Of a DNA stretch of 64,000 nt, positions 31,335 through 34,522 are shown one piece after another (position 1 is the stretch's first letter; the number at the start of each line of letters is the position of its first letter). The DNA is from Ensifer sp. LC11 (GTDB taxonomy: Bacteria > Pseudomonadota > Alphaproteobacteria > Rhizobiales > Rhizobiaceae): positions 1 to 64,000 of the forward strand of contig NZ_MBSO01000019.1 in assembly GCF_001695835.1 (NCBI RefSeq), read 5' to 3'. The translations under genes and the position numbers were made by a program. Below the pieces are notes generated by a model that saw nothing but the letters and a program-made list of their open reading frames with translations, was not told the DNA's origin and ran no database searches.

Positions 31335-31802
31335 ATGAAGATCGACAACAGCATCTCGAGCTACTATTTCTCGCAGCGCCGCGCCCAGGCCGGGACGGTT
31401 GCCCCGATCGAGGAAAGCGGCAGCGACGCGCGCCCACGCCTTGCTCCCACCATCGCACCACCTTCAACGTCCAATGCACTCTCCAACGCCTTGTGGGCCA
31501 CGGCGACCCGTGAAGAAACAGGCACCGCCTCGATCACCGACAAGGAGGGAGCGGCCCCATCCGGCAATTCGGTCAGTGACGAGTTCCTGAAACGCGCGAA
31601 GATGAGCCTGGCGGAGCAGATCCGAGCCCAGATCCTCGAATCGCTCGGCCTCAGCGAAGAGGACCTGAAGGCGATGGATCCCGAACAGCGGAAGGCCGTC
31701 GAGGAGGAAATCCGCAAGGCGATCGAGCGGGCGATGGGCGTTGAGAAGCAGCGCGATGATGCCGCCGCCGACATCGCCAATAGCGACAGCGATATCGCCT
31801 GA
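31335..31802 (+). CDS. Conserved hypothetical protein, helical C-terminus
   Basis: A 155-residue soluble protein without signal peptide. The first 80 residues look disordered (rich in Ala, Ser, Thr, Pro). The rest is a charged helical segment 'LAEQIRAQILESLGLSEEDLKAMDPEQRKAVEEEIRKAIERAMG', a pattern I recognise from small Rhizobiales proteins of unknown function. Translation may be controlled by the hairpin upstream. Not recognised further. Confidence 0.68.
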   Translation: MKIDNSISSYYFSQRRAQAGTVAPIEESGSDARPRLAPTIAPPSTSNALSNALWATATREETGTASITDKEGAAPSGNSVSDEFLKRAKMSLAEQIRAQILESLGLSEEDLKAMDPEQRKAVEEEIRKAIERAMGVEKQRDDAAADIANSDSDIA

Positions 31803-32034
31803 TATCGCGCGGATTTCGCGGATCTAACTGTGAGTATCTTCGACAAGAGCGTACACACGCCGCAACTGGAGGAAAGTGACCTCTTCGGCGAGGTGCTGCT
31901 TTCCTTTCCAGGCCCCGTCGATGGGCGCGCGTAGAAAAAGCAGGAATTGAAGCGGAGCGTCATTCGCGTGCACTTGGGAAAGGCGATCGGGCCTTCCCCT
32001 CTTCGCCACCATTGACACCCGGCAGCAAGCCATT

Positions 32035-32059
32035 ACCTATTGCTCCAGAAGCTATAGGT
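32035..32059. promoter_or_regulatory. Candidate MerR operator
   Basis: Dyad ACCTATTGCT-CCAGA-AGCTATAGGT with one mismatched pair, ending 12 bases before the merR-type ATG at 32071. The outer ACCT/AGGT ends and total length fit operators of MerR-family metal sensors. A TTGACA at 32012-32017 lies just upstream. Confidence 0.6.
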
Positions 32060-32070
32060 TTGAGGCATAC

Positions 32071-32484
32071 ATGTATTCCATCGGTGATCTCTCCCGCCGC
32101 ACCGGCGTGAAAATACCGACGATCCGCTACTACGAGCAGATGGGGCTGATCGCAGCGCCCGAGCGCTCTGAAGGCAATCAGCGGCGATACGAGAAACGCG
32201 AACTTGAGCGGCTGACTTTCATCCGCCATGCACGCGACCTCGGCCTGTCGATCGAATCGATCCGCGACCTGCTCGCGCTCAGCCAGCATCCGGAGCGCCC
32301 CTGCGGCGAGGCGGACCGGATTGCCAGTGAGCATCTGACGACCGTGCGCGAGAAGATTGCCAGGCTGAGGAAACTGGAACAGGAACTCGAACGGATCGTT
32401 GCCTGCGACGGCAATCACACCGTCGGCGACTGTTATGTCATCCGGGCGCTGGCCGATCACTCGATGTGCGACAGCGAGCACTGA
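32071..32484 (+). CDS. MerR-family metal-sensing regulator (ZntR/CadR-like)
   Basis: A 137-residue regulator with the MerR winged helix ('YSIGDLSRRTGVKIPTIRYYEQMGLIAAPERSEGNQRRYEKRELERLTFIRHARDLGLSIESI', 2-64) and a dimerisation helix (about 80-110). Cys78, Cys112, His116, Cys121 and Cys133 match the ligand pattern of E. coli ZntR (Cys79, Cys115, His119, Cys124, Cys141). This suggests sensing of Zn(II) or similar divalent ions. Its operator overlaps its own promoter. No metal-efflux gene is next to it, so the target lies elsewhere or it controls only itself. Confidence 0.85.
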   Translation: MYSIGDLSRRTGVKIPTIRYYEQMGLIAAPERSEGNQRRYEKRELERLTFIRHARDLGLSIESIRDLLALSQHPERPCGEADRIASEHLTTVREKIARLRKLEQELERIVACDGNHTVGDCYVIRALADHSMCDSEH

Positions 32485-32520
32485 GGCGGCCGGCTTCGAC
32501 CACGCGCGCAAAATTCCCCG

Positions 32521-32549
32521 TTGACAAAATGGCGAAAACGAACAATCTA
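32521..32549 (+). promoter_or_regulatory. Strong sigma70 promoter of the attenuated GNAT operon
   Basis: Consensus TTGACA at 32521-32526, 17-base spacer, then AATCTA at 32544-32549 as the -10 region. The expected start point, six to seven bases later, coincides with the ATG of the leader peptide at 32556, which would make that mRNA leaderless. Confidence 0.65.
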
Positions 32550-32555
32550 GCGCCC

Positions 32556-32606
32556 ATGATCAAGAACGCACCCATTTGCCGCGCGTATTTTTGGCTGTTC
32601 CGATAG
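32556..32606 (+). CDS. Leader peptide MIKNAPICRAYFWLFR of a transcription attenuator
   Basis: A 16-codon reading frame ending TAG at 32604-32606. It contains the run Tyr-Phe-Trp-Leu-Phe (codons TAT TTT TGG CTG TTC, 32586-32600). The last codons overlap the first strand of the pause hairpin, as in classical attenuators. No ribosome site is visible, but the predicted transcription start lies at the ATG, so it could be translated leaderless, as is described for the trpL leader of S. meliloti. The rare aromatic run suggests sensing of charged tRNA for aromatic amino acids. Confidence 0.75.
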   Translation: MIKNAPICRAYFWLFR

Positions 32607-32660
32607 GAGCGGCCTGCTGATCGTATTCAACAAGGCCGCCATCAGGCGGCTTTTGTTTTT
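32593..32660 (+). terminator. Transcription attenuator (pause, antiterminator and terminator stems)
   Basis: Four segments can pair in two exclusive ways. Segment 1 GGCTGTTCC (32593-32601) pairs with segment 2 GGAGCGGCC (32606-32614) across a GATA loop. Segment 2 (GCGGCCT, 32609-32615) can instead pair with segment 3 (AGGCCGC, 32633-32639) as antiterminator. Segment 3 (GCCGCC, 32635-32640) can pair with segment 4 (GGCGGC, 32645-32650) across ATCA as terminator, followed by TTTTGTTTTT (32651-32660). Ribosome stalling on the Tyr-Phe-Trp codons would block segment 1 and favour readthrough. Confidence 0.82.
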
Positions 32661-32698
32661 CCGGCTCCTGATGGCGAGAAAACCCGAGGAGCCCAGAC

Positions 32699-33202
32699 AT
32701 GCTACAGACCGCCATCCCGACCCTTCATTCGACACCGGCAACCCGACCGCCGATGGTCACCATCCGCTGCGCCAAACCGCGTGACCTGCCGGAACTGCGC
32801 GACATGATCGCCGAGCTGTCCGCTCATCACGGCGACGCCGCAGCGATCACGCCGGAACAGCTTGAGCGCGACCTCTTCGGCCGCACGCCCTGGATCACCG
32901 CGCTCGTCGCCGAGGCCGGAAACCGGCTGATCGGCTACGCGATCCTGGTACCGATCTACAGGGCTGCCGAAGGTGCGCGCGGCATGGAACTGCATCATCT
33001 CTTCGTGCGTACGGAGAGCCGCGGCACCGGCATTGGCCGCCATCTCGTCGCCAAGGCGCGCGAGCAGGCGAAGATGGCCGGCTGCGACTATCTTTCCGTG
33101 AGTGCCGCCACGGGCAACTTCCAGGCGCATCATTTCTACGAATCCGAGCGCTTCGTACCTCGTCCGGTCACCGGCATGCGCTATATGCAGAAACTTGGGT
33201 GA
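32699..33202 (+). CDS. GNAT-family N-acetyltransferase under attenuator control
   Basis: A 167-residue GNAT protein. The fold begins around residue 20 ('VTIRCAKPRDLPELRDMIAELSAHHGDAA'), motif A is 'MELHHLFVRTESRGTGIGRHLVAKAREQAKMAGCDYLSVSAATGN', and the end 'AHHFYESERFVPRPVTGMRYMQKL' is the usual beta5-alpha4 segment. GAGGAG precedes the ATG at 32699, 38 bases after the T-run of the attenuator. Control by aromatic-amino-acid codons hints that the substrate is an amino acid or related amine. It is followed after ten bases by a DJ-1-type gene. Confidence 0.9.
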   Translation: MLQTAIPTLHSTPATRPPMVTIRCAKPRDLPELRDMIAELSAHHGDAAAITPEQLERDLFGRTPWITALVAEAGNRLIGYAILVPIYRAAEGARGMELHHLFVRTESRGTGIGRHLVAKAREQAKMAGCDYLSVSAATGNFQAHHFYESERFVPRPVTGMRYMQKLG

Positions 33203-33212
33203 GGATGAAACG

Positions 33213-33794
33213 ATGCGCCTTGCGATCGTGCTTTACGAAGGTTTCGCCGATTGGGAATGCGCGCTGTTGATGGCGGCGGCGCGCACCCATCTCGGCGTCG
33301 AGATCGACGTCGCGACCGCCGATGGCGCACGGGTGACGTCGATGGGCGGCCTCGACGTTTCGGCGCATCTGTCGATCGACGCGCTCGATCCTGCGGGTTT
33401 CGACGGGCTGGTGATCTCAGGCGGCTCGATCTGGGAGACGGATGAGGCTCCCGATCTCTCCGCCACGATCCGCGCCTTCGACCGCGACAGGCGGCTCGTT
33501 GCAGCCATTTGCGGCGGGGTCAGTGCGCTGGCCGCAAGCGGTGTTCTCGATCGCATCGACCACACCGGCAATGGCGCCGACAGCCTTGCGCCGCTCCGCG
33601 GCTATCGTGGGCAAACTCACTATTGCAACCAACCGCAGGCGCTGCGCAGCGGCCATGTCGTGACGGCCGCCGGCACTGCGCCGATCAGTTTCGCCGGCGA
33701 GATCCTGCGCGGCCTTGGCCTCGGCTCACCGGAACTCGACGGCTTTCTCGCCCTCTACGGACGAGAGCATGAAGCCGCGGCGAGCGCCGGATAA
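33213..33794 (+). CDS. DJ-1/PfpI-family protein
   Basis: A 193-residue class I glutamine-amidotransferase-like protein with 'MRLAIVLYEGFADWECALLMAAAR' and the nucleophile elbow 'VAAICGGVSALAASGVLD', in which the Cys is the expected active residue; Glu in 'DWECAL' may assist. Relatives act as glyoxalases, chaperones, amidases or isonitrile hydratases. It starts ten bases after the GNAT gene and is probably cotranscribed, so it is also under the upstream attenuator. Confidence 0.87.
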   Translation: MRLAIVLYEGFADWECALLMAAARTHLGVEIDVATADGARVTSMGGLDVSAHLSIDALDPAGFDGLVISGGSIWETDEAPDLSATIRAFDRDRRLVAAICGGVSALAASGVLDRIDHTGNGADSLAPLRGYRGQTHYCNQPQALRSGHVVTAAGTAPISFAGEILRGLGLGSPELDGFLALYGREHEAAASAG

Positions 33795-33847
33795 GAAGGC
33801 CCGCCGAACTGCCGGCTGGCGATCCTCTCACATTTCCCGAAACGGCT

Positions 33848-34522
33848 TCAGAGCCAGCTCGAAATCTGATCGAGCGGCTTCTTGACCTTGCCCGCCACAG
33901 GCACAGTCGCATCCGGCGCAGGATAACCAACCACCAGGATCAGGAACGGCTTTTCGCTATCAGGCCGGCCGCAGATCTCGTTGAGGAAGTTCATCGGTGC
34001 TGGCGTATGGGTAAGCGTCGCAAGCCCGGCGTGATGCAGCGCGGTGATCAGGATACCGGTGGCGATGCCGACGCTTTCGTTGATGTAGTAGTTCTTCTTC
34101 AGGTCGCCCGGATTGGGGCCACCGCGCTTTTGCGAGAAGACGACGATGAGATAGGGCGCGGTCTCAAGGAAGGGCTTGTCCTCGTCGGTGCCGAGCGGCG
34201 CCAGCGCATCGAGCCACTCCTGCGGTGCCTTCTCCCGGTAGAAGACGCGCTCTTCTTCCTCCGCCGCGCGCCGCACCTCGGCCTTGATCTGAGCGCTCTC
34301 GATGACGGCGAAATGCCAAGGCTGATGGTTGGCCCCGCTGGGTGCGGTTCCAGCCGCCATCAGGCATGCCTCGATCACTTCACGCGGCACTGCCCGGTCG
34401 CTGAAATAGCGCGTTGTACGACGTCGGTTGACCTCTTCATAAAACGCGTTGGCGCGCGCAGCCATCTCCTCGGGGCTGCGTTCGATCCACTGGTCATAGG
34501 GTGCGGTTTGATGTGGGCGCAT
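33848..34522 (-). CDS. Nitroreductase family protein
   Basis: A 224-residue FMN-dependent oxidoreductase. '[44 protein letters not shown]' (about 33-76) is the FMN-binding start of the family. '[37 protein letters not shown]' is the C-terminal core, resembling the iodotyrosine deiodinase/BluB-like branch. GAGGAGGAG precedes the ATG at 34522. Substrate unknown. It lies alone, convergent to the DJ-1 gene. Confidence 0.9.

Follow-up and report, generated by a model that had tools for sequence, protein, structure and literature searches.

The described system closest to the present locus is trpLE(G) of Sinorhizobium meliloti (rnTrpL/peTrpL). According to two papers (PMC7298713, PMC10117765), which deal with trpL and also with a Thr/Lys leader candidate, trpLE(G) has a leaderless leader ORF and a ribosome-dependent 1:2/2:3/3:4 switch, and releases a short RNA. 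PMC12218461 deals with another attenuator of S. meliloti that also relies on a uORF. For vmlR of Bacillus subtilis, PMC9226507 describes uORF stalling that governs both termination and a stem sequestering the Shine-Dalgarno (SD).

The window analysed here is a stretch of 64,000 nucleotides from Ensifer sp. LC11 (NZ_MBSO01000019.1, positions 1 to 64,000), and the attenuator parts and the GNAT gene given below are on its forward strand. Positions 32521-32701 form a putative complete ribosome-dependent transcription attenuator before a SSAT-like GNAT gene. This candidate resembles trpLE(G) by the apparently leaderless ORF, the 1:2/2:3/3:4 switch and the short RNA proposed here; it differs in signal and target, i.e., Trp only and anthranilate synthase for trpLE(G), Tyr, Phe and Trp and a GNAT in the present case. 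It resembles vmlR in that uORF stalling would act on both termination and a SD stem, whereas vmlR belongs to a Gram-positive bacterium, relies on an antibiotic-induced three-codon uORF and has no sequence relation to the element. Compared with the Phe leader (Rfam RF01859), also an aromatic leader attenuator, the element scores 15.6 bits vs. a gathering score of 55. The Rfam families, including Phe_leader and T-box, gave no gathering-score match in the window, and the best sub-threshold scores near the element are far under their gathering scores; a known Rfam element is thus ruled out.

Consecutive Trp codons before trpE, as in trpL, are not what is found at this locus, where the leader peptide is MIKNAPICRAYFWLFR and the gene a GNAT. 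The trpE leader of the Ensifer sp. LC11 genome is MENARNISIWWWAR (L265:1200-1530), trpE being found by family. Its sequence presumably differs from that of S. meliloti peTrpL, and a trpL pattern had no match in this genome. By eye, the same trpE leader has possible region-3 and SD pairings past its terminator.

The leader ORF extends from 32556 to 32606 (ATG at 32556, stop TAG at 32604-32606, both read from the sequence and placed by script), is conserved in relatives and contains the control codons TAT TTT TGG at 32586-32594. A -35 box TTGACA is read at 32521-32526, and of 95 distinct leaders all but one have TTGAC 34-37 nt upstream of their ATG (94 of 95). Of the promoter claimed in the preliminary description, TTGAC is thus kept in relatives, but the presumed -10, CAATCT (32543-32548, read by eye), is a poor match and the strict sigma-70 scan of 31500-34000 gave no promoter. 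The spacing of the -35 box fits the leaderless start claimed with it, and the ORF is apparently leaderless; however, leaderless translation is not certain because SD-like letters stand upstream of the ATG in 26 of the 95 leaders.

Five pairings and a terminator can be placed in this 5' region. (i) P0 joins the leader start-codon region (32556-32562, including the start codon) to a segment upstream of the terminator (32618-32624). (ii) The pause stem P1 has 9 pairs, two of them G-U, between region 1 (32593-32601, overlapping the Trp-Leu-Phe-Arg codons) and region 2 (32606-32614), i.e., it overlaps the end of the frame as had been described. (iii) The antiterminator, 7 pairs as previously claimed, joins region 2 (32609-32615) to region 3 (32633-32639). 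(iv) The intrinsic terminator with its T-rich tail, located by scan, fold and energy, occupies 32635-32660 (stem 32635-32640/32645-32650, loop ATCA). (v) P5 joins the terminator arm, loop and GG of region 3 (32637-32646) to a segment downstream of the T-run, CCTGATGGCG (region 5b, 32667-32676). (vi) P6 joins the flank just before this segment, the anti-SD GGCTCCT (region 5a, 32663-32669), to AGGAGCC (32687-32693), which contains the SD of the GNAT gene. The calculated energies are -12.7 kcal/mol for the terminator, -13.3 for the antiterminator, -17.0 for P5 and -9.4 for P6. Pause stem, antiterminator and terminator are mutually exclusive by sequence and energy. P0, P5 and P6 were absent from the preliminary description.

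Folding of the leader RNA (32556-32665) yields P1, the terminator and, unprompted, a helix between the 5' end and 32618-32624 (-42.2 kcal/mol, z -2.98, 1 of 200 shuffles equally good). The 3' part alone (32604-32665) folds unremarkably (z -1.17), and 31500-34000 contains 2 terminator-like sites vs. 2.1 from shuffles, i.e., the chance level. Scans of the single sequence being weak, it is its conservation in relatives that places the attenuator above chance.

A DNA search across 199 Rhizobiaceae genomes gave matches in 39. All 30 loci returned by this search have the same GNAT downstream and a leader with neighbouring Tyr and Phe. The covariance model R1 has matches in 112 of 394 family genomes. 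At 62 bits or above, matches occur in 100 of the 394; all were opened, and the element precedes the GNAT in each of them, with a second copy of the element in 7 of these 100 genomes. The 12 other genomes have weak matches only, and the three that were opened showed one true element and two without any. Locus L140, a weak match, has a true element ahead of a GNAT of 41% identity. A protein-based search gave 402 GNAT relatives, the best 80 of which were kept as named loci (Ensifer, Sinorhizobium including S. meliloti 4H41, Rhizobium, Pararhizobium, Neorhizobium, Agrobacterium, Ciceribacter and other Rhizobiales). The leader is present in 80 of these 80, a figure that concerns the most similar relatives and does not speak for the remaining 322. 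A plain terminator or a chance ORF is ruled out by the conserved leader and helices.

The helices were examined by a swap test, in which pairing with the own partner is compared with that obtained when partners are exchanged among sequences (1000 swaps). With the relatedness of the sequences left in, z is 4.4 for P0, 9.4 for P1, 12.6 for P5 and 9.5 for P6, no swap out of 1000 being as high, while nine control segment pairs range from -5.7 to 1.4. No excess is seen for the antiterminator (497 of 2000 swaps as high). Antiterminator and terminator core are nearly invariant and thus give no covariation for or against, so that, of the covariation of three stems expected in relatives, only that of P1 is found; together with the conserved leader frame, it supports the preliminary reading. 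It has to be noted that the alignment matters: the covariation is strong on the alignment fitted to the structure model, unlike on a plain MAFFT alignment of 30 leaders, where that of P0, P1 and terminator together is weak (double-change pairs, 271 of 500 shuffles as high).

In 71 of 97 sequences P5 spans the whole of GCC-loop-GG without a break; its strands occur in 17 vs. 29 states, with 32 joint changes on the GNAT tree. Examples are CCATCAGG/CCTGATGG, CCGTCAGG/CCTGACGG, CCGCAAGG/CCTTGCGG and CCTTCGGGG/TTCCGAAGG. For P6, GGCTCCT/AGGAGCC becomes GCGTCCT/AGGACGC, GCATCCT/AGGATGC, CGTCCC/GGGACG and others. Among 84 5'UTRs, P5 with at least 7 ungapped pairs is found in 69 and missing in 15, and the same numbers hold for P6 with at least 5 ungapped pairs; both helices are found together in 57, of which 51 have the order of a H-type pseudoknot. 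The third loop, L3, has a median of 12 nt and is A-rich (51% A). Covariation thus supports P0, P5 and P6 as helices beyond the pause stem, and, as judged from the sequences, one switch probably controls both termination and translation.

The leader frame with aromatic codons, already noticed in the preliminary description, is conserved in the 80 named loci and in 89 distinct peptides pooled from the genome and named-locus sets. Tyr adjoins Phe in all 89 and Trp is present in 88 (L131 is the one leader without it). The order is YFW in 78, WYF in 9 and other in 2; Trp thus moves across Tyr-Phe and is retained despite the rearrangement. Codons were scored for 96 of 97 leaders, L140 being left out for its different residue order. 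Phe is encoded by TTT in 96 of 96 leaders vs. 32 of 526 (6%) in the GNAT genes, and Tyr by TAT in 93 of 96 leaders vs. 135 of 477. The control codons TTT and TAT are thus the rare ones by GNAT-gene usage. A short leader ORF carries the codons of the amino acids that would be sensed, as in an attenuator; a single codon each for Tyr, Phe and Trp is however few for a classical one, and this counts against the reading.

A second copy of the element in the Ensifer sp. LC11 genome, with the YY leader MIKTALIAATYYATSP, stands directly before a tyrosyl-tRNA synthetase gene. This putative sister attenuator is a model match at L075:1501-1618 (minus strand; G000:C11:21859-21976). The enzyme, TyrS2, is one of two TyrS of this genome, as is expected of an auxiliary TyrS, and no comparable leader was found upstream of the other. 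An auxiliary TrpRS of Streptomyces is also under ribosome-mediated attenuation, though for another amino acid and in another phylum. An intact YY TyrS2 leader at L132 (G071) has no TyrS within about 1 kb downstream, i.e., it is an orphan attenuator.

Outside Rhizobiaceae, TyrS is downstream of the element in L064, L065, L068 and L245 (NCBIfam) and in L226 and L230 (Pfam; the start of the L230 leader was not located), and L227 and L228 are putative further cases by appearance. TyrA (prephenate dehydrogenase) is downstream in L066, L067, L071 and L249, all four at the Pfam cut-off and only L249 at that of NCBIfam as well. The gene behind a WW leader is TrpS in L250 and a class I W/Y synthetase in L260. 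The leader residues are YY before TyrS and TyrA and WW before TrpS. From their sequences, other alphaproteobacteria are thus predicted to have related switches ahead of genes for tyrosine and tryptophan, relatives that the preliminary description did not include. For these relatives the targets belong to amino-acid biosynthesis or charging (TyrS, TyrA, TrpS); the GNAT is not known as such.

Two other families of the class (f118, f144) have W-Y-F leaders ahead of GNATs with 27-31% identity to that of Ensifer sp. LC11. In f118 the distant GNAT is found in 69 of 75 genomes, and among its best 30 loci, all opened, 29 have the W-Y-F leader, the remaining locus being cut by a contig end. A tandem GNAT pair stands behind the W-Y-F leader in many f118 genomes (G970, G971, G1004 and others). 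A plasmid search for the other-family GNAT gave no match. In 20 relatives (TyrS, TyrA, TrpS or other GNAT), letter shuffles match the pairing in at most 5% for P0 in 12, for P5 in 7 and for P6 in 7; some relatives thus show the extra helices clearly (e.g., L246, L228, L250), others not at all or doubtfully (e.g., L071). The weak model matches that were opened (E 1e-5 to 1e-3) were mostly rejected as ordinary terminators without leader.

Taken as a whole, the element is, with good confidence, an attenuator sensing the charging of the Tyr, Phe and Trp tRNAs, with a second lock on the readthrough mRNA; the switch probably turns the GNAT on when ribosomes are short of Tyr, Phe or Trp. Transcription would start at or near the leader AUG. 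When a ribosome passes TAT TTT TGG and reaches the stop, or when there is no initiation, regions 1 and 2 would pair (or both be covered), the 3:4 terminator would form and transcription would end near 32660 with release of a RNA of about 105 nt. A ribosome stalled at an aromatic codon would instead sit over region 1; regions 2 and 3 would then pair, no terminator would form and the GNAT gene would be transcribed; induction would presumably occur through such stalling. Once formed, P0 would hide the leader start codon, which is the role that we infer for it.

In the readthrough mRNA, region 5a would pair with the SD of the GNAT gene (P6) and the adjoining region 5b with region 3 (P5); the partner of region 3 would thus set both termination and translation. 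In leaked mRNA, the energies permit 5b to compete with the terminator for region 3 and take it over. P5 and P6 would then form a H-type pseudoknot that shuts this mRNA and is loosened when region 2 holds region 3. This closing pseudoknot is favoured, and it is the direction of the second lock that we infer. The lock may also be reversed, P5 displacing P6 and so opening the SD in the induced mRNA, as PMC9226507 proposes for vmlR; besides this precedent, P5 is the most stable helix, and 23 of the 57 5'UTRs having both P5 and P6, i.e., those in which the pairing is with the SD core, have 3 nt common to the two helices. We lean against such an opening while holding it to be a real possibility: 26 of the 57 have no more than 0-1 nt in common, so that P5 and P6 need not exclude each other, and the A-rich L3 (51% A, median 12 nt) suits a pseudoknot. 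Either reading of P5 gives the same sign, i.e., induction on stalling.

The stall itself might have another cause. A YFW peptide could arrest a ribosome bound by a drug or metabolite, the GNAT being then a resistance enzyme. Antibiotic inactivation is common among GNATs; vmlR of B. subtilis combines a stalling uORF with attenuation of transcription and sequestration of the SD (PMC9226507), and a tetracycline-responsive uORF attenuation is known in S. meliloti (PMC12218461). An arrest peptide is nevertheless improbable, since the residue order varies (YFW, WYF) with free flanking residues, YY or WW versions of the element stand before TyrS, TyrA and TrpS, and the NCBIfam resistance models are all under cut-off for this GNAT. 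Still less probable is a sensor of tRNA modification, in which the loss of iron-dependent (ms2)i6A37, not of charging, would slow the ribosome. UAU, UUU and UGG are of the UNN type, and the tRNAs that decode them bear (ms2)i6A37. The leader has them consecutively, and its TAT and TTT are fixed at the wobble position, but the pairings YY-tyrS, YY-tyrA and WW-trpS indicate the cognate amino acid. A TnaC-like stall at the stop codon under aromatic amino acid excess, to which an aromatic peptide before a possible detoxifying enzyme might point, is hardly credible, since a ribosome held at the stop covers, by geometry, both regions 1 and 2 and would favour the terminator, and since the C-terminal residue is variable (R, L, P, Q, S).

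The gene under the proposed tRNA-charging attenuator (32699-33202, ATG at 32699) is an acetyltransferase, as had been claimed, and belongs to the GNAT superfamily by Pfam (PF00583, 57.6 bits vs. a cut-off of 20.7) and by fold. The closest PDB profiles are SSAT2/thialysine acetyltransferase and SSAT; the predicted model has a pLDDT of 89.9 and its best fold matches are 2fe7, SSAT and SSAT2. The SSAT/SSAT2 (thialysine) N-acetyltransferases are thus nearest in solved sequence (2bei, 1.7e-19) and in fold (2fe7, 3bj7), at about 24-33% identity, and no NCBIfam equivalog, resistance models included, was reached at cut-off. In the 80 named loci the neighbours are cytochrome genes (80), LysE (78), a WYL regulator (77), MerR (51) and DJ-1/PfpI (42). 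Nothing aromatic is seen among the ten window genes that served as queries, and no functional clue comes from the neighbours. The DJ-1/PfpI gene (33213-33794) lies directly 3' of the GNAT gene and may be co-transcribed with it. A 155-codon frame at 31335-31802 has no Pfam or NCBIfam match and a similar sequence in 26 of the 80 named loci.

A joint loss of Tyr, Phe and Trp charging is the effect expected if the shikimate pathway or the aromatic aminoacyl-tRNA synthetases were blocked, and in a speculative reading the GNAT may therefore disarm an inhibitor of this kind. The wider proposal to which this belongs, rather unlikely to hold as a whole, is that of an ancient alphaproteobacterial architecture in which region 3 has three partners (for termination, antitermination and pseudoknot sealing of the SD) and three aromatic tRNAs are sensed to switch on this GNAT, TyrS2 under the sister switch being a second defence arm.

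The preliminary description could not place the GNAT among established attenuator targets, and no GNAT attenuator was found in the open-access literature, subscription papers being outside this search. Within the same scope, no tyrosine attenuator and no alphaproteobacterial tyrS, tyrA or trpS attenuator was found. Attenuators of this class of bacteria are said to have been treated by Vitreschak et al. in 2004, where such a case might be mentioned.

The proposed switch would extend ribosome-dependent attenuation to tyrosine and to mixed aromatic signals, as well as to an acetyltransferase as target. For amino-acid attenuators of Gram-negative bacteria, P5 and P6 suggest that the same switch can also act on translation. 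The W-Y-F leader, recurring before divergent GNATs in separate families, would be the first clue to the role of these enzymes.
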